Under the pieces are notes generated by a model. That model did not search any database, was not told where the DNA came from, and saw only the letters and a program-made list of their open reading frames with translations. Below, piece by piece: positions 6,543 through 43,165 of a stretch of 64,000 nt of DNA. This stretch comes from Fragilariopsis cylindrus CCMP1102 (lineage: Eukaryota; Bacillariophyta; Bacillariophyceae; Bacillariales; Bacillariaceae). Each line of letters starts with the position of its first letter. Positions within the stretch are counted from its first letter, which is position 1. The stretch is taken from assembly GCA_900095095.1 (NCBI GenBank), contig FMBT01000363.1, positions 124,001 to 188,000 on the forward strand, in the 5' to 3' direction. The position numbers were made by a program, and so were the translations under genes.

Positions 6543-8531
6543 TTAAAATGCCTTTCGTACGTTACGTTTTTGTCTATTGCGTTTCCATTTTGGTTGTAGA
6601 TAAAATTCATCTTTTGTTAAACCATTGAAATGCTTATGAAATTCTTCATCGTTTAGGTAAGATTCCCATGTTTCCATATCAATTTCACCATGACGTTTTT
6701 GTTCAAGATCCTTTAATGTATAATAAACCTCATGGTTAATGCCATTATTATTGCTGGCAATAATAGCAGAAGAACCTTCATCACTATAGTAAACTGTCAC
6801 TTCATCGTTAATGCTATTATTATTGCCGACAATAATAGCAGAAGAACCTTCATCACTGCAATCGTCGAGTATTGAAAAGTCTATCCGTGCCAATTCATTT
6901 GCTAACGCAAGTCGACTAGATTCTAGGTCTTCCATTTCAGCATCTAAATCGTCATCTTCTTCTTCGTTCTGGGTGATGGTCGTTCCTAATTTTCCTATAT
7001 GCAGTATCGGTAATGCCAATAGCTCATCGAGTCGTGATACCTGCTCCATGAAGAGTTCCTTTACACTGCCACTAGCACTACTAGGTACTGGAGAAGCTCG
7101 TGATAAAAATGAAGGAGTTGGAGTACTGAATATGTCTTCAATGCGATTTGATGGATTAAAACCTGAGAACGGTTTAGATGTAGGTAAAGCGTCGTAACGT
7201 GTTTCGTCGTCGGTTACGGTATATTCCATATAACTTTGCTCGTCATCGTCGGAGACACTTTGCTCGACGTAAGAGGTATAAGAAGCGGTGGCAGCACCAA
7301 CATCAAAAGAAGGTAAAGAAGCGGTGGTAGCACCACCAACAACAAAAGAAGACAATGCTATCTTCTCTTTAGTATTTGTAGTAGTAGGAGTTGGTGGTAG
7401 TGAATTTGCCATCGGTTTAGATGCAGGTGCAGAAGCGGTGGTAGCACCAGTTACAAATATAGGATACAATAATTTCTTCTCTTTAGTATTTGTAGTAGTA
7501 GTAGTAGTAGTAGTAGTAGAAGTAGTAGTCGGTAGTTGTGAATTTGTCATCGATTTAGATGTAGGTGAAGAAGCATAGATCATGTTGTGGGTTCCTGCTT
7601 CGATCTGATCTAAGTTGCCATCTACTGTTGTGATGATGATTGATTCAATTGGTGCTACTACGTTGGTGGTGGACATTGACGAAATACTGCCACTGCAATC
7701 TTCAAAAGTAGGATTCTTTTTTGGTTTATTGATGTAGTCGTTGAGGGTAATTTCTCCACTATCAAACATGACGCTATGATCGAGGGATTTGTACTTCTCT
7801 TCTGGACTATTTGTCAATACTACTTCTGTTGAAGTATCATTTTCAGTTTCATTTTTTTCAGTTTCATTTTCATCATCAGTCTTAATCGTTGTTTTAGTAC
7901 AAAATTTTATCTTGATTGTATATGCTGCAGCAAGTAAGAATATTATACATGCTATAATAGCATATATTGGTGATAGTATAGTAAATATAACACCACAAAC
8001 GACGACAAGTATTGTTATACATGGTGTACAACAAACAGCAGAACATAGAAATGATGATTCTCTCATTAACATTCTAAAATTACGGATTAATAAACTTAGT
8101 ACAATACCCATTAAAAGTAACATAACTTTTGTAAAATTATTACCATCATTATCGTACGTTGTTACAGTAGCATCACCATCTGATTCATCATCGTACATTA
8201 CTCCTACAGTAGTTACAGTAGCAAATGAACCGAAGGTTGCTATACTTGCAATAATACTGATAATTGGTACAATAAATAGTTCAGCTTTATCAATAATTGA
8301 CTCATATTCTGTTAACATTTTACCAGTAGTTTCAAATAATACCAGAACAGCTAAAATAATAATTGCCCACCAACTCGTTAAAATAGGTCCAATGATTGTT
8401 GTATCCATATATAACGAACTTGGATATAATAATCCTATTAAACATAGCAAAAATAGTGTTAAAAATGGACTTATACCAGTATTACCTGATATTGTTAATG
8501 ATAATGCTAATGACGAGATATAATTACTCAT
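6543..8531 (-). CDS. DUF4126-like polytopic membrane protein with disordered tail
   Basis: A 662-residue intronless ORF. The first ~225 residues are hydrophobic, with about six predicted membrane spans, and resemble DUF4126: GISPFLTLFLLCLIGL at the start, then a W-I-I-I-LAVLVLFE segment, a D-rich turn and a P-x-I-S repeat. The function of that family is unknown. The remaining ~430 residues are acidic, Ser/Thr-rich and disordered. The tail holds internal duplications: SDEGSSAII occurs twice (DNA copies near 6740-6790 and 6805-6860), and a TNTKEK...GATTAS unit also occurs twice. The family members I recall are nearly all membrane domain, so the tail is a lineage-specific extension. A TGACGTCA site lies 108 bases upstream of the ATG. 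Confidence 0.6.
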   Translation of the reverse strand: MSNYISSLALSLTISGNTGISPFLTLFLLCLIGLLYPSSLYMDTTIIGPILTSWWAIIILAVLVLFETTGKMLTEYESIIDKAELFIVPIISIIASIATFGSFATVTTVGVMYDDESDGDATVTTYDNDGNNFTKVMLLLMGIVLSLLIRNFRMLMRESSFLCSAVCCTPCITILVVVCGVIFTILSPIYAIIACIIFLLAAAYTIKIKFCTKTTIKTDDENETEKNETENDTSTEVVLTNSPEEKYKSLDHSVMFDSGEITLNDYINKPKKNPTFEDCSGSISSMSTTNVVAPIESIIITTVDGNLDQIEAGTHNMIYASSPTSKSMTNSQLPTTTSTTTTTTTTTNTKEKKLLYPIFVTGATTASAPASKPMANSLPPTPTTTNTKEKIALSSFVVGGATTASLPSFDVGAATASYTSYVEQSVSDDDEQSYMEYTVTDDETRYDALPTSKPFSGFNPSNRIEDIFSTPTPSFLSRASPVPSSASGSVKELFMEQVSRLDELLALPILHIGKLGTTITQNEEEDDDLDAEMEDLESSRLALANELARIDFSILDDCSDEGSSAIIVGNNNSINDEVTVYYSDEGSSAIIASNNNGINHEVYYTLKDLEQKRHGEIDMETWESYLNDEEFHKHFNGLTKDEFYLQPKWKRNRQKRNVRKAF

Positions 8532-30824: not shown

Positions 30825-31621
30825 ACAGGGTTGCAGAGGACAACACCAAATAGGCCGGGTGCACTAACATCCACATAGTATACAAGAACATTGTGTTGGT
30901 ATCCTACAACTTTTCTTTCCTTGTGGTTGCGGAATAAAATGCGTTACGCTTTTATGGCAGGCACAGAAAAATAACAAGATTTTGTACTCCATGCAACAAC
31001 ACCAGCTGGGCCGGGTGCACAAACGTTCACATATTGTACTAGAACATTGTGTTTGTCTCCTACCACATTTCTGCTGCTGTGGTTGAGGTATAACATTCAT
31101 TTCAGAACAATGTTGTTGCACACACAAAAATAACAAGATTTTGTATCAGAAATGAACCACAAAATATCTCAGATGAAAGGGCTCCATACAACAACATCAG
31201 CTGGGTCAGGTGTACAAACATTCACATCGTGTACTAGAACATTGTGTTTGCCTCCTACATCTTTTCTATTCCTGTGGATGAGGAATAACATTCATTTTGC
31301 TGTTGTTGCACGCACAAAAATAGCAAGATTTTGGATCAGAAATGGACCACAAAATATCTCATTTGAAAGGGTTGCAGAGGACAACACCGGATGGGTCAGG
31401 TGCACTAGCATTCACATAGTATACTAGAACATTGTGTTTGCCTCCTACTACTTTTATCTCCCTATGGTTGCAGAATAAGATTCATTTTATGCCAGGAACA
31501 CAAACAACATGATTTTGGATCAGAAATAATGAACACCAGATGGGTTGGGTACACAAACATCCACATAGTGTGCTAGAGCATTGTGTTTGCCTCCTACCAA
31601 ACCACAATTCCAGCTGGAATT
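30825..31621 (+). repeat. Tandem 5' monomer array of the non-LTR retrotransposon
   Basis: Five related units lie directly upstream of ORF1. The shared anchor GAACATTGTGTTTG (with variants) begins at 30886, 31042, 31237, 31427 and 31576, giving spacings of 156, 195, 190 and 149. Each unit also has a CACCRGMTGGGTYRGGTGCAC-type block and CCTCCTAC. The array ends in a perfect palindrome, AATTCCAGCTGGAATT (31606-31621), about 110 bases before the ORF1 ATG. Tandem promoter monomers are known from mouse L1; the same role is inferred here. Confidence 0.7.
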
Positions 31622-31730
31622 AATTGAAAACGCGCACCTCAAGTTATATCACTTAAAACACTCAGTACTGAAACTACGTAGAACTCTACGCGAATCTCTG
31701 CAACCAACCCTCTAAACGAGACTGTTGAAG

Positions 31731-34700
31731 ATGATACCAAAGCCAGTATTAATCCATCATGGATGGAGCCACACCAATGGAGAAGACATGTATGACAACG
31801 TATCAATAGGGTCCACCAAGGAAGCACGAAGCGGGGACAATTTGGACCAAAAATCGATGAAATTGAAGACAAACAGTGAAAATGGAATTATAGGCATTAG
31901 CGACACTGACACCGACACCGATGAACAAGGATGGACTACAATCAATGCAAGTGGAGGACGTAAACCCAAAACAACAACCAGGGAAAGGCCAATCATTGAT
32001 TCAATCATAACAACCATCAACGTAGCAACAAAGACAGTGAAGAACGGAGCAATGGAAGTAAGAATCAAATCACCTGTACGTAGAAACAGATGTATCATAC
32101 CAGACAAAACAGCAAGAGATTACGACGACGAATCAGCATATGATATAACCAAACAACTAATGAAACAAGTGCCAACAACAAAAGCAGAAGAAGATGAAGA
32201 TGAAGAAGAAGAAGAAGAAGGAGAAGAAGAAGTGAAGAAAATCGAACCACCAACCCGAAAAACCGGAAGCATGATAACCGATGGAATTGAATTTGAACTC
32301 AACAGTAGAAACCAAAATGAACAACGTCTATTATCACCAGGAAATATTGCAGATAACGACAAGAAGAAGAGGAAGAATGATGACAACGAAGGAAAAGAGG
32401 AAGAAGAAGAGGTAGAAGAAGAAAAGAATCTAAAGAAAGTAAATAACAAAAATAATAAAAATAATATAGCAACAAACAACAAACCAGTGGAAGGAAAATA
32501 CAAACATAACAAAGAAAATATGGTAACAATGGCAAATGAACAAGCAGGAGATAGTGAAAACAGAAGATTAACAACGGAACGGGCGACAAACGACCAAATG
32601 CAGGAGGACGATGGAAATGATACCACTGGAAGTGAAGGAAATAATGGAAATAATGCAAGTGAAAATAATGGAAATACTGGAAACAACGACAATGGCAACA
32701 ACAACGGAGACAACAGTAATAATAATAACAACAACAGAAAGAGAGGAGGACGTCCAAAAGTATCCATAGTAGCACCAACAGACATGGAAACATATACCTT
32801 TACAATCGCATGGAGACCAGAAAATAAGGCAGGTAAAGATGGAAAAATTATTATAAAGAATGCAATGAGAGAAATGCAGCACAGAGAACCAACAATTATA
32901 TTCCACCCAACAAACTCAGCAACATCACCAGCACCAAGAGACATAATCAATATAAACAATGATTTTCCCAAGACTCCAGCAACCTATGATGATTTCTTTG
33001 ATCAAAATAGAAATAGAGACAATACAAATCAACAAACATTCATGAAAGTATCGATGCCACACAATGAAAAAGAGCTACAAAACAAACTACATAACTATTT
33101 ATACCATAATCAACTATACATGAACAGTCCGTTCATTAATGACAACACACTGGAGCAAGTAGGATTTGTAGAAAAAGCGCACAGTAGATTAGTATATCGG
33201 CCAACAATGGAGAAGAAGATTAGTAATGGAATAAAAGAAATTATGAATAGCAATAAACTTACACCACAACAGGTAGCACAAATAAAGAACCTGTCCAGTA
33301 ATATAAGAGTTGAATGCCACAGGGGAACAGTACGAGGAGGAGAATACAACAACCAATCTGTATGCGAAGGAATAGTACTAAAGACAACAAAAACACAGGC
33401 AAAATTGGTAATGGAACTATTGGCAATGCTACCAGATAAACTACTAGGAGATCATTACAGAATCATCCCTAAAAGTCTAAATCAACTCCTTGGATTTGAA
33501 TTATATGGTCAAATAGTAGCTGATACAGTCAACTTTCAAAACAAATTAAAACCTATCACTATACTCAACTGTCATCCCAGCGTACTAGACGATATGTATG
33601 GCAATGTTAAGGTACTAAATTCTAAGCAGGTGACAGTACAACAATTTATATTAGGTAACTGTGGTGCTATATCAATTGAAGAGACAAATGAAACATCAAC
33701 TAAAGGAAAATATATCGTAATTGTACCAGCAAATAATTTAGATTCAGCAAGAACAGCAATTGGGAAAATGTTTCAGGAGTTTCAAGATAGTAGTGACAGA
33801 CCAGCAGCAATGGAATGCATCAAAGCATACAACAACTACCCATTAGTGAATGATACTGTAACAATAAGTGGACATGCTGAAAGATTATCTCAACAGATTA
33901 GAGAAAGATACCGAAACAAACCCAAAACACCAGTCAGAAATACGCAGAGTTCTCAGTACTCGTACCATGGAAGCTTTGCAATGGAAGAACAAGCTGCATC
34001 GCAAGCACCTTCAGTACCTAGGAGTATCATTAAGAACGGAAGGCATACCATCAATACAGCAATACCAATACAACAATGGGCTTCACCACCGGTAGTACAA
34101 CAAGCAGCAACAACAAATCAAGTAGAAATAGGAACAGTTATGTCCAATTTATCACCGGATGATTCAGCAAAAACAATGATGACAAATGTGTCAAAAATGG
34201 TTGAATCGCTAAGCACAGTAGTCAACTCATTAGCAACAGGTACAGCAAATACAAACGAAACAATTAAACAAATGATGATACAACAAGCAGAAACAAACAA
34301 ACAAATGATGATACAACAAACAACAACAATGAACAATCAAACAACAACAATGAACAACCTTATGATGCTAATGACAAAGAATGAAGAAAGAAGACAGGGA
34401 TCACTAATAAGTGAAATACAACCAGTAATAGATTTACAACAAGGATCTACACCAGCAAGCACTTTAACAAACAGCCTGTACAGTCAATCACAAGAACAAT
34501 CAACAAGCTCCAACAAAAGACCAAAACATGGATTAGATGATGATGAAACAACAGCATTATCAACAGTAGAAAATGGTACATCAGATGAACCAGAAGAAGG
34601 AGAACAAGAAGATATGATAGAAGAACAAACAGAACAAATGGAAGTGACAACAAATGAACAATCAAATGATGTAACAATGGGCGATAATGAACAAACAAGA

Positions 34701-34829
34701 GTTGAAACAACAAACACAGCAAATGTACCAGGAGATTTCAGTCAATTTAATAATAATAATAATAATAATAATAAACAAACAACAACAAATACATCTGCAA
34801 AGACAGATATGAACCCACCAAATGAATAG
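31731..34829 (+). CDS. Non-LTR retrotransposon ORF1 (nucleic-acid-binding type)
   Basis: The frame extends six bases further to a TTG, but the first ATG is 31731, giving 1,032 residues. Residues 1-335 are acidic, Lys/Glu/Asn-rich and disordered. RKRGGRPK (336-343) is an AT-hook-like motif. Residues ~344-730 are compact and free of low complexity, and start VSIVAPTDMETYTFTIAWRP; I cannot assign this region, and see no CCHC knuckle or obvious RRM. Residues ~817-890 are Gln/Met/Thr-rich with heptad-like spacing and could trimerise, as ORF1p of L1 does. The tail is acidic. The stop codon overlaps the ORF2 start by eight bases. The expected role is an RNA-binding chaperone that packages element RNA. 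No in-frame stops, so the copy looks intact. Confidence 0.8.
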   Translation: MIPKPVLIHHGWSHTNGEDMYDNVSIGSTKEARSGDNLDQKSMKLKTNSENGIIGISDTDTDTDEQGWTTINASGGRKPKTTTRERPIIDSIITTINVATKTVKNGAMEVRIKSPVRRNRCIIPDKTARDYDDESAYDITKQLMKQVPTTKAEEDEDEEEEEEGEEEVKKIEPPTRKTGSMITDGIEFELNSRNQNEQRLLSPGNIADNDKKKRKNDDNEGKEEEEEVEEEKNLKKVNNKNNKNNIATNNKPVEGKYKHNKENMVTMANEQAGDSENRRLTTERATNDQMQEDDGNDTTGSEGNNGNNASENNGNTGNNDNGNNNGDNSNNNNNNRKRGGRPKVSIVAPTDMETYTFTIAWRPENKAGKDGKIIIKNAMREMQHREPTIIFHPTNSATSPAPRDIININNDFPKTPATYDDFFDQNRNRDNTNQQTFMKVSMPHNEKELQNKLHNYLYHNQLYMNSPFINDNTLEQVGFVEKAHSRLVYRPTMEKKISNGIKEIMNSNKLTPQQVAQIKNLSSNIRVECHRGTVRGGEYNNQSVCEGIVLKTTKTQAKLVMELLAMLPDKLLGDHYRIIPKSLNQLLGFELYGQIVADTVNFQNKLKPITILNCHPSVLDDMYGNVKVLNSKQVTVQQFILGNCGAISIEETNETSTKGKYIVIVPANNLDSARTAIGKMFQEFQDSSDRPAAMECIKAYNNYPLVNDTVTISGHAERLSQQIRERYRNKPKTPVRNTQSSQYSYHGSFAMEEQAASQAPSVPRSIIKNGRHTINTAIPIQQWASPPVVQQAATTNQVEIGTVMSNLSPDDSAKTMMTNVSKMVESLSTVVNSLATGTANTNETIKQMMIQQAETNKQMMIQQTTTMNNQTTTMNNLMMLMTKNEERRQGSLISEIQPVIDLQQGSTPASTLTNSLYSQSQEQSTSSNKRPKHGLDDDETTALSTVENGTSDEPEEGEQEDMIEEQTEQMEVTTNEQSNDVTMGDNEQTRVETTNTANVPGDFSQFNNNNNNNNKQTTTNTSAKTDMNPPNE

Positions 34830-35582
34830 AGGTGATGATGATAATGAGAACAATGAGGAGAAGAAAATAATAGCAGCAAGAAAACAATTTAAAGAACACA
34901 ACAATAATGAATCAAATATACCAGAGCTAATTAGTAGATATGGTGCTGTTGAATCATCGGATGATGATAGCAGTGAAGAAGACACTCCAAGACGACGCCT
35001 ACCGATTGAAAAGAGACTGGAACAATTAAAAGAATCGATGGAAAGAATAAGTAGTGCAAAGAGTAGAAATAGAGGGCCAGGACTACAGAGGAGAAATCTA
35101 GAAGACAGTGATAGCGAGAGTGATAACGAGGAAGAAGATAATAACAATACAACGCCGGGATTACAGGACAGAGACAGAGAAGACAGTGATAGTGAGGATG
35201 ATACGGATGATGAACATGATCAATTAGGGATCAAATCATCACGAAATACAGAAGAAATAAAAATAAAAACTAAGTTAGTGCGAAAGGAACGAAATAGTGT
35301 AGAAATAAGCACTAAATCAGTACGAAATAGTGAGTTAAGGACTAAATTATCGCGAATTGAAAAATCTAGTAGTATCAACGATGAGGTTGCAACCACTGTA
35401 TCAATGGAAACAACAACAACAAGAGCTATAGGAGATAACAGCGACTATGGAAATGGAAACAACAGTGAAGAAGACCTATTCTTTAAGTCAAGCGACGACG
35501 AAGGTGAAGAAGAAGTTAGTGTACAGAATAATAATCATCATAGCAATGAAAAAGAAGTAACAACAACAGCAACAGAAACAGC

Positions 35583-35614
<32 letters not shown>

Positions 35615-38600
35615 CGAATAAAATGAAGATAACGCAAGAAAACCTACCTTTTGGGCATATTTGTGATGATATAGCAATAGGAAATGATACACCATACGTT
35701 AGAGTATACTGTCAAAATGTATGTGGAATATACGATAGAGACGGTATAGGATTAGACTCGGCATTCAATGAAATGAAGCAGGCAGGAGCTGATATATTTA
35801 CATTCAATGAGACCCACGGAGATGAATCAAATGCAATAGCAAGACGGGCTACAAAAATGTCAAAACAAAGAATGTGGAGAGATAACAATGAAGATTGCAA
35901 AATACTACATTCATCATCAACAGCACCTGTACTAAGCTTTACAAAACCTGGAGGAAATATGGTCGGAATAACTGGATCACTAGTAGGCAGAATAAGAGAA
36001 ACAATAACAGATCCGTACGGAAGATGGTGTGGCTATACACTTATAGGAAAAGATAACAAAGAAATAATGGTATTAACAGCTTACAATGTATCACAACATA
36101 AAAATGCAAAAGTAGGAGATGATACACTGTACAACCAACAAACAGCATTATATAAATTAAAAGACATCAGAGATCCAGATCCAAAGAAATTATTTATAGA
36201 AGATTTAACAGCACTAGTAAAGAAGGCAAGGAAGGAAGACAAAGATATCATATTAACCGGTGACTTTAATGAATTAATAGGTGATGATCCTAATGGTATG
36301 GTGAAAGTGATATCAGCAGGAAGCCTTACAGATGCACACAGTCATCAACATGGTATAGTAGACATAACAACGTATACAAGAGGAGTCAAAAGATTAGATT
36401 ATGTATTTGTAACACCAAGGCTAGTAGACCACATACTTCGAAGTGGATACGAACCCTTTCATACAAGAATAGCATCAGATCACAGAGGCTATTTTGTGGA
36501 CTTTGCACTAGCTGGATTCCTAGACAGACAGTTACCATCGATATTCTCAGCATCATCAAGAGCAATCAGAGGAACCCATCCGAAGAACATCACAAAATAT
36601 GTGGAACACCTCCATAAAGTTTTCAAGATGAGAGATATCTATAGGAGAGTAAAATTACAAAAGAACTGGTATGAAAAGAAGAAATTAGAAGCACTAGACA
36701 GAGAAATAACTGCAGTCATGCTAGAAGCTGAAGAACAGTGCAGAATACATCATAGAGAACCATGGTCGAAGGAAGTGAATGAAGTGATGACGACAGCAAA
36801 CATACTCCGTATTCACTTGTCGAGTCTGAAAAATAACATCGACTGCAACAACCAAATACAGCAAAAGCAGCTTCTGTTAAAGAACCAAATAGAACTCCCT
36901 GCAGACATTGCAGAGGCCTCCAAAGCGCTGAGTATAGCACAGAAGAAAAGAAGGAAATTAATAAGAGATAACAGAACAAAAACGACTAGCATAGGAGAGG
37001 AACAAGAAGCAGCATATGTAGCAATGAATCCGGAAATGGATGCAAAGAGGGCAGCGCAGATATTCCAGAGAGCAAGAGATACAAAACAGATGATGTCGGA
37101 GTTACCATCAAAAATGAACTGTCCAGGGGGTCTATCAGCTGTACTGGTACCACTACCAAAAGAAGGAATTGAGATTGAGTACTTGGCAATAACAGACGGA
37201 CCAACAATTGAAAGAATAATACTGGAGAAGAATATTAGACACTTCAGGCAAGCAGAATTCACTCCATTGGCATCGCCAGAGGTAATAAGAACAATAGGAT
37301 TTGGAGCAGATACAGAAACAGCACAACACCTGCTTGATGGAACTGGTGATCCAACAGATATAACAGATGATGAATGGTCCAGATTTCTACTAACGTCAAT
37401 GAAAAGAAATTCGGAAGAACTGAAAATAGAGATAACAGCAGAGAAAATGATGGAGAAGTATAGAAGATGGAATGAACGTACAAGCACATCACCATCAGGC
37501 AGGCACTTGGGACATTTTCATGCATTATTTCGACCACTAAAGGCAAAGAACAAGAAACATCGTGAGCAATTAGACGATATCAGAGATGAAATAATTGACT
37601 TACATGCAACAATGCTTCAGACAGCGTATGACAATGAGCATGTCTACAAACGATGGGAGTACATACTCACCTGTATGCTGGCAAAGGAATCTGGAATACC
37701 AAGAATACACAGATTGCGAGTGATACACCTATACGAATGCGATTTGAACCTACTCTTTTCATTATTCTTCAGAGAACTGGACCAACACTGTGAAGATAAC
37801 TTTCTACTCAACAAAGGAGTGTATGGATGTCGACCGAATAGAAGAGCAATGGACCCAGTCTTTGTAGATGTAACTCAAAATGAAATGGCAATGGTAACAC
37901 GAAAGGCCCTGGTGAAATTCAACAACGATGCAACAGCGTGCTTTGATAGAATATTAGTACACTTGCTCAGTCTGTGCCTGCAATCAGTTGGAATGCCAAA
38001 GAAATTAACAAAAATACTAGGAGAACTACTAAGAGTGGCAAAATATGCAATAAAAACTGGAATAGGAATATCAAAAGAAACATACCAACACTCAGATGAA
38101 TCACCTGCATTTGGATCTGGACAAGGTAGTGCAGCATCAGCACAAGGATGGACAAAATTAGTATCAATGCTGTTTGATATCCACGACAAGCATGGACATG
38201 GATGTAAATATGAAGACCCATGGAGATTATATAGCGAAATAATTGGCATGCTAGGATTTGTGGATGATAATAATATTACAAACAATGGCGAAGAATGGGA
38301 AACAGTAAATGATATCATCATAAGGACTCAACACGATGCACAGCTATGGAATGATTTATTACGAGCAACAGGAGGAGCCCTAAATCTTGACAAGTGCTTT
38401 GCACAAGTACTAGCATTTCAATTCGGGCTGAATGGAGCACCAGTTATCGCACCAGCTGACCCAACCAACATAATAATAATAAAAGACAGGCAGAACAACA
38501 AAGAAGTAATAATCAAACCAATATCACCATACACGACGTATCGGTTCCTAGGTACGGAACAAGGAACAAGCAAGAATCAAAAGTCACAACAAGGAAAATT

Positions 38601-41600
38601 AGTGAAAACTTCAGGAACTCACAACAGAAAGCTCGCTTGCTCTGCAATGTCCCCAAGATGCGCTTGGGTCCACTACTCAGCAGTATTCCTAAGCAGTGTA
38701 GGATATCCACTCAGCATGTGTCACCTCAGTCAACATCAACTGCATGATCTACAGAAGAAATATATCCCAACACTACTGAATAAAATCAGCATAGCCAGAA
38801 CACATGCACATGCGCTAGTATTTGGACCAAGAGCGTATGGAGGAGTAGGTTGTAATGACCTAAGAATAGAACAAGGATTAGATGCAGTACAAAATCTAAC
38901 CAGGCAATTACGGACTCCAGGCTACGGCAAACAACTAGCTACAATCTTCCTACGAACATTCCAACATGCGTCCGGACTATCGAAACCACTGCTGCAGTTC
39001 CCCAGAATCAGAGCTCCTCACCTTGAAGGACACTATTATGTAAATATACGAAGATTCCTAGCCAAGCACAGAGCTAGCCTCGAAATAGAATGCATACCGA
39101 AATCAATAGATGAACGAATAGGAGATACATACATCATGGATGTAGTATGTGTACCAGCGGCGGCATTGACATTAGATAGAACAACACTAAAGCACTACAC
39201 TGATGCAGAAATCAACCAAATCCACTACTGCAAGAGCTACCTACAAGTAAAAAGAATATCTGATTTATGCACAGCTGATGGAGCTTTTATAATGCCATCC
39301 ATAGCAAAAGGAGAAAGAAGCGTAAGACAATGTACATCCAAACTGAATGAAATAACACAAGAACGACCCGGTGATCAATCGTGGACGGTGTGGAGAAAAT
39401 TCCTGAAGACAATATGCAAACCCAGTTCGAACCAAGGTCCAAACCCGGAACCAAATGAATCTAGCTTATTTGCACCAAGAATTGAACCACGACCAATTGA
39501 ACCAGGATCCGAACCCGGACCCAGCTCACGACTCAACCTATCGACCGAGCCAAGAACCGAACCAACCCCAATGGAAACTAGGGATGCCCTCATAGAAAAT
39601 GAGGGACTGCAGCAGAGAAAAGAAGTGATAGACAAGGTTAGCATTGGAACGTTCATACTCAAATACTGGGTCGGAGTACCGTTCAGAGGCATCGTAATGA
39701 ACAATACAGGCAAATACTACAAGATACTATATGAGGACGGCGATGAAGAGGAACTTAACCATACAGAAGTAGTAAAATATGAGAGGAAGTATAGAGGAGA
39801 GGGACGAATGATAAAAGAAATAGGAAGGAGAATGAGACTTACAAAACCACTAGGAGACTGGCTTGTACAAGCTAATAATTCAGAAAGACTGTGGCCATTT
39901 TACTACTCAGAAGACACGGACACTCTATACAGGAGTTACAGAAAAGAATGGTACACCAATGGAGAATACTACTATGACTGCCATAAAATAGCAGACAATG
40001 ATACATACAACTATACAGCAGATAGAAATGTGGAAACATTACCAGACGATGCATCACCAACGGATGTAATGGACACCGACGATGGATGGAGAATATCAAC
40101 ACATCACTCAGTACGACAACAAGAAGAACAACAACAACAAGCCATGGAGAGCAAAACGATAATGCAATATCTACAGTCACAAGAAGAACATGTATCACAG
40201 TACTATGCAGAAATAAACTTCTACACCACACCGCATGCAGTCTATGAACTAATAAAATCACCAAGGAAATACAACATAGCGACAGATGGAGGGGCAATAC
40301 CACTCAAAGGATCTCTGGGATTTGTTGTGGCAGATGAAGATGGAACCATACTATTATCTTGCTACGGACAACCATCAGGAAATGATCCACTCTCATTCAG
40401 ATCTGAAATATGTGCATTACTAGCAGCAGCAAAACTTATACAATTGATAACAGAATACTATGACAATCACACCCAATGTGAAGAACCAGCAAGAGGGAAA
40501 ATACAGGTGTACACTGACAGTCTAAGTATGATAAAGAAATTAGAAGCATATGATGAATATCCAACAGCACATCTGAAGACAGTACTAAATTCAGAGTGGG
40601 ACGTACTTTCAGCACTGAGTAGGACTTTGAAGAAATTCAGAACATACCCAAAACTAAGCTGGGTAAAGAGTCACCAAGATGATTGGGTTTTTGATGAGAA
40701 AGCAATGCCACTGGAGGCTTATCTGAACTCAGAAGCAGATGAATTGGCAACGATAGGCCTGAAGAGACTACAAGAAAAACCAACTGTACCAATGGATCCA
40801 AACACATGCATACAGTTCCACATTGAAGGAAGAACAATAACAAGAAACTTCAAAAACACAGTAAGAGAAATAATACTACTAAAACCACTACGAAAATTCT
40901 ACTGTGAAAGATTCAAGTGGAGTGACAATATTTTTGACTTGATAGATTGGGACGTATTTCGACCAGTCTACAAGAAACACCTAACAACAAAAGGAATAGC
41001 ATGGATGCATAAATTTTGCATAAAGAAACTTCCAACAGGAGAAAGAGTACACAAAAGAGACCACTTCCATGACAAGAGATGCGCATCATGTTTGGATGAT
41101 GAAGATGATGACCACATCCTCCAGTGTGTTAACAGAAGAAGCGTAAGAAAGAAGGTTGTCAATCAAATAAATGTACTGCGCAAAACAGTGGACAAGAACT
41201 TGTGTGACATACTACAGGAAGGTTTAATGGCTTACTTCAATGGGGACTGCATGTCCAACACCATGTTCAGAATAAGAGGAGGGAAAGACATGGAAAGGTA
41301 CAATAATTTAATAGATGAACAAACTGTAATAGGATGGGACAATCTGTTAAGAGGGAAATTTTCAAAGGAATGGCGAATACAGCAGAAAGCATATAAAACA
41401 AGACTAAGATTAGTAGATCCAATAAAGTATGACAAGATACAACGAATGAAGAAACGTAACCAAGAGCAACAAAATGACACAAACAACAACAACAACAACA
41501 AAACAACCAAAAGCAAAAATAAAACAGAAGAATTTCACGGTTTCTTTCAGTCATTAGTACCAATAATATTAGAAATGTGGACAGATAGGTGCATCGACAG

Positions 41601-42150
41601 AAACACACCAGTATTAGGGGGCAGAATAGTGGCAGAATATGAATCTCTATGCAAGAACGTAACACATCTGTATACACTGAGAGAAATGGTATTGCCAGAA
41701 GATGAAATTAAGATATATGATGAAACACTACTATCAAAACTTGCAGACACAAACCAACAATTGAAAAAGTGGATCAACAGATGGAGACCAGTAATAGACC
41801 ATAGCATGAAAAGAGTGAAGGAATTAGCACAAGAAAACAGCAAACCGATATGGCAACACTTCACTGCAAACAAACCAGCAAAGACCAAGGTATCAAGGAA
41901 ACTATTGAAGCAATTGAAACCAAAGAAATATTCTAATAACCCATTGACAAATGTGTACACCAGATTAAAGAAGAAGCGATCATCAAGTAGAGTACTTCCA
42001 GTAATAAAGAAAATCAAACATAAGGTTAATCATTTGATATCAACATTGTACAACAAATTGGGAAAGAAGAGATCAACTAGCAGAGAGCAAACAGCATTGG
42101 AGGTGGGAAAGCAGATAATTGATGACAGATTTGGAGATGAACCTAAGTAA
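34822..42150 (+). CDS. Non-LTR retrotransposon ORF2: endonuclease, reverse transcriptase, Tudor-like, RNase H, CCHC
   Basis: A 2,442-residue intact polyprotein, about twice the usual LINE ORF2. After ~290 acidic residues comes an APE-type endonuclease: Asn299, FNETH (Glu330), GDFNE (Asp481, Asn483) and SDHR (Asp553, His554). The reverse transcriptase has NNDATACFDRI (Asp1036), FGSGQGSAASAQGW and FVDD (1146-1149). A Tudor-like segment, YYKILYEDGDEEELNHTEV, lies within residues ~1614-1653. RNase H follows with TDGG (Asp1822), RSE (Glu1862), YTDS (Asp1899), KSHQ (His1951) and Asp1973. A zinc motif is Cys2087-x2-Cys2090-x7-His2098-x3-Cys2102. The C-terminus is strongly basic. RNase H plus APE suggests the I/R1/Tad side of LINE diversity. 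All catalytic residues are present, so it may be active. Confidence 0.9.
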
Positions 42151-43165
42151 TAAATAAATGTAGAATAAATTTGGCGGGTAGATTGTTGACTTTCTGTCTT
42201 TCTAAGACCTTAAGGAGCAAAGCTGCAGCTATTAAATAATAAGTTATATATGCCTCCTACCAAACCTGGTGGTTCATCATCGCTTGACTAAAGTTATTCT
42301 GACTGGTATCATTATTTCTATCTCACAAATTCTCCAGTGGAGTTTTTTACTCCTTAGGTTCTAGAACCAGCATAGTGCACCAAAATACCACCCAGTCATC
42401 CATCTCATTCCCATGGGGGATGAACCAAGGGTCATGATCCCTCATACTACCTTATTCTTGCGTCCAGAACACAAACATTGTCATATTTCAATGCCCAAAA
42501 GTACCATTCAGAAATAGGCTGCCACACCATCAAAAAAAGGAATTGGACCATGGTTTGAACACCCAGATACCTTCCATATATACATATGGTCAAAATAAAC
42601 CAACAATACTTGGAACATTTGCCACATTGGTGGTGTAGTGGGACGGGGAACAATAGAATAGACATAAAATGGCCCAAAATGCACACATTGCAAAAATATT
42701 TGAGATGCTACCTTGCCCATACCGTACCAGGTATGCTGAGTCCCAGATAAAAAAGCTAGGCATCAACCTAAATTATAAAGGTTTTTGATTATATCATTGC
42801 TTTAGGTAACCATATAAATATTTGGGGTGTCACGGGTCAACATCTTGTTGAGATTCTAGTTTAGATAGAAGATTAGTTGAGTTATTAAGGTTGTTCTAAA
42901 CGATTTATGAGTTCTATCTTAGGCTGTTCATTAGACGCTTCTGTATTGCTTGTGTTAGTGTGTATAGGCATTTGTTGTTTGAATTGGTGTTACTGTTTGA
43001 ATCTGCGCTTGATAGTAACGGCATTTTCGGTCTGTCCGTCGTGCGTGTTAAGATTTCAACACATCTACCTCTGTTAAAACACACACTTTCTCTAAGTGCC
43101 AAGCGCACGTGTAATCAAGGCTGTGATGCATCACCAATGCAGACCTTATAACCTTGAAAGATTAT
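42151..43165 (+). repeat. Probable 3' UTR and flank of the retrotransposon
   Basis: TGCCTCCTACCAAACC at 42251-42266 is identical to 31588-31603 in the last 5' monomer, so this region belongs to, or recombined with, the same element family. I see no poly-A tail or clear target-site duplication, and cannot fix the 3' end. A stretch near 42890-42915 resembles the element at 8731-8755. The short minus-strand ORFs have no recognisable motif. Confidence 0.5.

Follow-up and report, generated by a model that had tools for sequence, protein, structure and literature searches.

A PTM/DIR17-like Tudor domain predicted within ORF2 of a LINE retrotransposon in the diatom Fragilariopsis cylindrus

How long interspersed nuclear elements (LINEs) choose the chromatin into which they insert is an open question. 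These elements insert by target-primed reverse transcription and have no integrase, and to our knowledge most of their proteins carry no evident reader of histone marks. A LINE in the diatom Fragilariopsis cylindrus CCMP1102 bears on this question, because the second of its two open reading frames (ORF2) contains a segment resembling a Tudor domain between the reverse transcriptase (RT) and an RNase H-like region. The element lies in a 64,000-nucleotide (nt) stretch of contig FMBT01000363.1 (positions 124,001 to 188,000 of the forward strand; hereafter the window, whose numbering is used for all positions). A reading of the sequence alone had proposed that the segment is a Tudor/Agenet-type domain, unusual for a LINE ORF2, that could steer insertion to marked chromatin. 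Here we ask whether the segment is a Tudor domain, how the element came by it and what it may do there, using the 67.9 Mb of genome sequence (818 contigs) from which the window is drawn. Silicon transporters, matched in that sequence with E 1.1e-226, fit a diatom source.

The residues behind that proposal are present in ORF2, which reads V-P-F-R-G-I-V ... YYKILYEDGDEEELNHTEV at this place, and comparisons of sequence profiles confirm the segment as a PTM/DIR17-like Tudor domain situated between RT and the RNase H-like region. Its score against the Pfam family PF21743 (PTM_DIR17_Tudor) is borderline: the whole 2442-residue ORF2 (E 2.5e-5, 24.4 bits) and a 300-residue piece (25.9 bits) fall under the curated cut-off of 27.2 bits, and a 118-residue segment (E 1.2e-6, 28.6 bits) and the window copy in a six-frame search of the genome (29.3 bits) exceed it. 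The Tudor profile match that the sequence-only reading had called for was thus obtained with the short segment and missed with the whole ORF, and the window segment is a divergent member of the family. Because the Pfam score is borderline, profiles without common rows were compared. A profile made of LINE copies only (12 copies, 10 of them used by hhalign) matched five Tudors of non-transposon ORFs with E 1.5e-13, seven Copia Tudors with E 1.1e-13, and the three Tudors of loci L105, L107 and L108, which are sister to those of the LINE, with E 7.3e-22. A mixed profile of 14 rows (A2; four LINE, 10 Copia or other) recovered the solved Tudors of lamin-B receptor (LBR; 2dig, E 2.2e-6), RDM15 (7de9, 1.8e-5) and KDM4A (8.9e-4). 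In the list of 18 sequences with E values no higher than 0.5, only a cold-shock protein at E 0.31 is presumably not a Tudor protein. The LINE loop is two residues shorter than that of the aligned Copia and other Tudors, L105 and L107 excepted.

Several observations weigh against this identification. A mostly-LINE profile (A1) matched the Protein Data Bank (PDB) weakly, with a best E of 0.11 and five matches, all of which we take to be Tudor-bearing proteins, and a phmmer search of PDB with the window Tudor alone returned nothing up to E 10. Most copies outside the subgroup of the window element read EDND, EDHD or EDDD, not EDGD. Structure prediction, also proposed in the sequence-only reading, gave two single-sequence AlphaFold models of low confidence (mean pLDDT 59.6 and 59.3) with three main strands and a helix, and neither Foldseek nor VIA-align, which re-examines Foldseek's list, found a Tudor match of note with them. 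Because the models are of low confidence and the fold searches unusable, the identity of the domain is argued from sequence, and an SH3-like barrel is the fold that it would be predicted to adopt. These models without a confident barrel, together with a whole-ORF Pfam score of 24.4 against 27.2 bits, are what could be said for an acidic, low-complexity repeat that resembles a Tudor by chance. We consider such a coincidence highly improbable and have rejected it, as profile-profile comparisons reach E values of about 1e-13, purifying selection on the segment equals that on the RNase H region, and the segment is cleanly present or absent among relatives.

A recognisable Tudor was found with a hidden Markov model (HMM) at all 30 loci drawn from the top of 115 match rows, a count that leans towards carriers because the Tudor lay within the query and two LINE sequences were part of the HMM seed. 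Related copies therefore keep the segment, in line with the conservation that the sequence-only reading had asked of them. Ratios of nonsynonymous to synonymous change (dN/dS) were calculated pairwise among copies by the Nei-Gojobori method, the pairs being non-independent and truncated copies being kept where at least 70% of the region aligns. The ratio is 0.108 for the Tudor (28 copies), 0.118 for the RNase H region (24 copies), 0.076 for the part before the linker (17 copies) and 0.195 for the part after the Tudor (26 copies), and reaches 0.525 in the linker directly before the Tudor (21 copies). The Tudor is under purifying selection equal to that on the RNase H region and evolves more slowly than the adjoining linker.

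How the domain arrived can be approached through elements that do not have it. Measured between conserved WRKFLKTIC-like and PLGDW-like motifs, the spacer that holds the Tudor is 131-155 residues long in the 20 of 30 Tudor loci where it is open (143 in the window copy); two loci have stops and eight gave no result. Two close relatives, L070 (contig C674, RT 73% identical) and L071 (C59, RT 75%), have no Tudor and a spacer of 29 residues, and four elements of a distant family, B (RT 33-34% identical to the query), are likewise Tudor-less, with spacers of 8, 13, 13 and 8 residues. Loci L061 and L072 hold a divergent Tudor, which in L072 follows a short linker. Since these related elements have a short spacer in the Tudor's place, acquisition is indicated, and the domain was probably captured once by the LINE lineage and kept. 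No relatives from outside this genome were found in the viral contigs or genome contigs searched, which came from viral and prokaryote collections with little bearing on other diatoms.

With the Tudor columns removed, trees of 27 and 32 rows (L073 and rows no longer than 150 residues excluded, and L051 as well in the constrained comparison) unite L070 and L071 in one clade, with a single change needed in the ingroup, and a single gain is the simplest reading. Free quick trees rooted by the very distant family B weigh against it: they nest the Tudor-less pair inside the Tudor group, with two changes, so that the pair may instead have lost a Tudor ancestral to the LINE group. We regard this history as unlikely. 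The outgroup branch is extremely long, the domain is missing, too, from the four elements sampled in the sister family B, and a single Tudor clade is not rejected (approximately unbiased test, p 0.743 and 0.234); holding the Tudor copies together raises the log-likelihood by 4.77 on the pre-linker part and lowers it by 1.05 on the post-Tudor part. As a separate observation, the Tudor-less LINE L070 is interrupted by a Copia element nested between its RT and thumb region.

Domains of this kind are widespread in the genome. The PF21743 search listed 150 matches with E values of 10 or less, some of them below the cut-off, including Copia-type and other ORFs, and the idea that this LINE alone in the genome has a Tudor was rejected; because Copia elements carry Tudors too, the LINE is not the sole Tudor-bearing retrotransposon here. 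The rarity claimed for a Tudor in a LINE ORF2 is supported within the papers listed by searches of the open-licence literature, judged by title and opening of the abstract and with subscription papers and repeat databases outside the search: these yielded no LINE or Copia with a Tudor and no report of a Copia with a PF21743 Tudor upstream of RT. Five of the ORFs checked are Copia-type, with RVT_2 above the cut-off in L028 and L125 (61.1 bits in L125, the locus of tree row L092) and under it in L015, L024 and L105. In all five the Tudor lies upstream of RT, and in L015, L024 and L028 it comes after a weak retroviral-SH3 match.

A tree of the domains (73 rows, 51 columns; short stretches classed by ORF length and similarity) was calculated without rows shorter than 44 residues, duplicates, and L052, L063, L065, L068, L091, L110 and L112-L116. 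The LINE Tudors group in a single clade (support 85/75), whose sister is Copia L105 with the host-like L107 and L108 (95/72), neither support being starred, and the Copia Tudors other than L105 are spread over several separate branches. The classes LINE, Copia and other require five changes on this tree with L092 as Copia, and four, against 33.1 in shuffles, with L092 as other. The 76% identity between the Tudors of L105 and L107 points to an exchange of the domain by a retroelement with another gene. Both L107 and L108 carry the Tudor at the N terminus, with weak, sub-cut-off Pfam matches to Mis14 in both and to Ank_2 in L107. The Copia elements therefore resemble the LINE in having a PF21743 domain in a retrotransposon polyprotein, L105 with the LINE's own Tudor subtype, and differ from it in their Copia-type Pol and, L105 excepted, in Tudors that are placed elsewhere in the tree and, in nearly every case, have H, L or Q at one place of the presumptive ligand cage.

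That cage can be compared with the one in RDM15, a host protein of Arabidopsis that, as the relevant part of its report describes, acts in RNA-directed DNA methylation and reads H3K4me1 through W616, Y623 and Y641 plus D643 and D645, with E647 and Q654 as its H3R2 contacts (PMC8184781). The residues were mapped onto the alignment of profile A2 with the RDM15 C-terminal Tudor (PDB 7DE9) by the residue spacing given in that paper, and the alignment ends before the place of Gln654. By alignment, the six mappable places, equivalent to W616, Y623, Y641, D643, D645 and E647, read W, F/Y, Y, D, D, E in all 20 distinct LINE rows, the count leaving out L029 and the rows dropped from the domain tree, and the same holds for the three sister rows (L105, L107, L108). 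The mobile element thus presents, at aligned positions, the tryptophan, two tyrosines, two aspartates and H3R2-binding glutamate of a host reader, with F or Y at the second place. Elsewhere, the position of Y623 is occupied by H, L or Q in 31 of the 32 other Copia rows and by Y or F in 14 of the 17 remaining rows, which are neither LINE nor Copia. What distinguishes the LINE and sister rows is the tryptophan that they, like RDM15, have at the first place; the second Tudor of L077, one of the 17, has a tryptophan adjoining the first-place column. Two points count against this reading of the cage. Seven of the 17 other rows and one Copia row (L092) have F, Y/F, Y, D, D, E at these places, F replacing W, and much of the cage is, as far as aligned residues tell, common across the Tudor family and not special to the LINE. 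The tryptophan, moreover, stands five residues before the F/Y in the LINE and seven before Y623 in RDM15, and because the spacing differs by two residues its equivalence and role rest on the alignment.

The reading that we favour, with moderate confidence, is that a single Tudor gain was kept by selection and that the ORF2 protein (ORF2p) is docked on marked chromatin through methyl-lysine, with H3K4 as first candidate. The Tudor would have been inserted into ORF2 after the RT thumb region and before the RNase H-like one, and purifying selection would keep it for a job in the element's life cycle. When ORF2p reaches chromatin for target-primed reverse transcription, the aromatic cage may hold a methylated lysine of a histone tail, and this contact would dock the endonuclease and RT on chromatin of a marked class and might influence the choice of insertion site. 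Since the cage is most like that of RDM15, a reader of H3K4me1, the first candidate ligand is low-methylated H3K4. It is also possible, though we hold it more tentatively, that a Tudor subtype with a complete H3K4me1-type cage moved between the LINE, Copia and a host gene family, and that the LINE uses it as a reader tethering ORF2p to marked nucleosomes; if true, this capture of a shared module would give the LINE a counterpart of the chromodomain-guided integrase.

Other functions for the domain would leave histones out. It might bind the element's own partners, recognising methylated arginine or lysine on the ORF1 protein or on a host ribonucleoprotein or silencing protein, and serve in particle assembly or in evasion of silencing. 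The fast-evolving, proline-rich linker that it adjoins would suit protein docking, and yet the conserved W, F/Y, Y, D, D and E match a lysine-reading Tudor place for place, and we judge this function unlikely. Less likely still is a general SH3-like nucleic-acid or scaffold module that extends the surface of RT and RNase H, its reading of ligands lost or irrelevant. Copia elements do keep Tudors altered at the Y623 place in the 31 of 32 rows noted above, from which it follows that a retroelement need not have an intact cage to keep the fold; in the LINE, however, all six places are invariant or vary only between F and Y in all of the distinct rows, and the core around the cage is acidic (YEDGDEEEL), unlike a grip on nucleic acid. 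Docking on methylated chromatin accordingly remains the function we prefer.

The element that carries the domain (Table 1) is a non-LTR retrotransposon with an apurinic-type endonuclease: endonuclease and RT occur in one ORF, the layout has two ORFs, and there are no long terminal repeats (LTRs). All three copies with both ends read, those of the window and of contigs C91 and C88, are flanked by exact target-site duplications, of 16, 15 and 15 nt, and thus show the variable duplications of target-primed insertion. The 3' end reads AATAATAAGTTATATAT, without poly(A), and gave no blastn match to the element's own 5' end. Pfam found no match in ORF1 and no integrase in ORF1 or ORF2. The RT family PF00078, under its cut-off of 29.6 bits in the window copy, scores 30.2-30.6 bits in eight sibling copies. 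The RNase H-like region is unscored by Pfam, and its profile gave nothing against PDB up to E 0.1; in family B, Pfam gave only RNase_H at E 0.3 and RVT_3 at E 0.13. The location of the Tudor between RT and RNase H, as the sequence-only reading had it, accordingly agrees with the RT match on one side and with motifs on the other. The zinc finger is also under its cut-off of 27.5 bits in one family-B copy (zf-RVT, E 2.1e-5, 25.5 bits).

Table 1. Features of the LINE and its flanks in the window (aa, amino acids)
Feature	Position	Strand	Remarks
Target-site duplication, left copy, TGCCTCCTACCAAACC	31588..31603	.	Exact repeat at both ends; first T may be the element's
Full-length LINE, ~10.6 kb, two ORFs	31604..42250	+	Ends common to copies on C91 and C88
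ORF1, 1034 aa from first listed TTG	31725..34829	+	Overlaps ORF2 by 8 nt
ORF2, 2442 aa	34822..42150	+	
Apurinic-type endonuclease domain (Exo_endo_phos), residues 314-554	35761..36483	+	Pfam E 9.3e-6, 26.0 bits, cut-off 24.5
Reverse transcriptase core	37711..38400	+	PF00078 E 2.3e-4, 25.6 bits, under cut-off 29.6
Low-complexity proline/glutamate-rich linker, fast evolving	39418..39600	+	Spacer lengths, dN/dS 0.525
Tudor domain	39634..39786	+	Pfam core 39661-39771 = residues 1614-1650; PF21743, profile comparisons, dN/dS, cage positions
RNase H-like region (TDG...E...TDS...NSEADELA)	40264..40730, limits approximate	+	D-E-D-D motifs by eye
zf-RVT-like C-terminal zinc finger, residues 2046-2100	40957..41121	+	Pfam E 0.006, 17.7 bits, under cut-off 27.5
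Target-site duplication, right copy	42251..42266	.	Exact repeat of left copy

The 8-nt overlap of the two ORFs (34822-34829) recurs in the distant family B (L069, 5786-5793), which suggests coupled translation. About 100 bp to the left of the LINE lies a 190-bp tandem repeat of 2.6 copies (30987-31488), and the target site itself falls within a stretch resembling this repeat, CATTGTGTTTGCCTCCTAC. When the three empty sites were rebuilt, that of C88 was spanned by two frames of about 100 residues, and those of the window and C91 by no frame of at least 80 residues. Two LINE copies (L121 and L122; contigs C306 and C53) are followed, a short way beyond the 3' end, by a second, inverted LINE stretch.

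Of the 32 LINE copies with a Tudor, eight have a Tudor Copia no more than 20 kb away, where a uniform distribution would give 1.09, and three have one within 10 kb (0.55 expected if uniform). This is a weak hint that is not used as support here, and two of the eight, on C200 and C697, appear to be alleles of a single locus. The corresponding count within 20 kb is none of 10 for family-B LINEs (0.34 expected), four of 32 for LINE copies near another LINE (0.6 expected) and two of 59 for Copia near another Copia (2.02). Among the other Tudor ORFs, one that is not obviously a transposon (L031:1-2214:-) unites a Tudor with an HSF-type DNA-binding domain and DUF6824, and another (L020:1-1713:-) has, after its Tudor, a weak match to C-5 DNA methylase (E 0.0074); Tudor domains are reported in some DNMT5b enzymes (PMC9998398, in the part dealing with them). 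Elsewhere in the window, a predicted protein at 6543-8531 on the minus strand joins DUF4126 with a villin headpiece domain.

The nearest known system is Gypsy-10_Ec32 of the brown alga Ectocarpus, described in 2025 with a C-terminal Tudor and, in the passage devoted to it, as the first mobile element reported to carry such a domain, so far as its authors know (PMC12477816). Both are stramenopile retrotransposons with a Tudor in the polyprotein; the Ectocarpus element, however, is an LTR Gypsy with the Tudor at the C terminus, whereas the LINE here has it within ORF2, downstream of RT and upstream of the RNase H-like region. The window element has an internal Tudor and thus departs from the Gypsy layout of an LTR-flanked Pol with integrase and a C-terminal Tudor. 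In chromodomain Gypsy elements (chromoviruses) the chromodomain is fused to integrase, and a LINE is without one. There, too, a chromatin reader within a mobile-element protein is a proposed guide of insertion, as the Ectocarpus study mentions (PMC12477816). A chromatin-reader-like domain in a retrotransposon is therefore of a known kind, and what is new is the class of element and the place of the domain. A second class of retrotransposon, and Copia, now join the single Tudor-bearing Gypsy found among the listed open-licence papers, which suggests that chromatin readers were captured repeatedly in stramenopile retroelements. For the choice of chromatin by LINEs, the Tudor LINE and its close Tudor-less relatives in the same genome offer a natural comparison of elements with and without a reader-like domain in ORF2.
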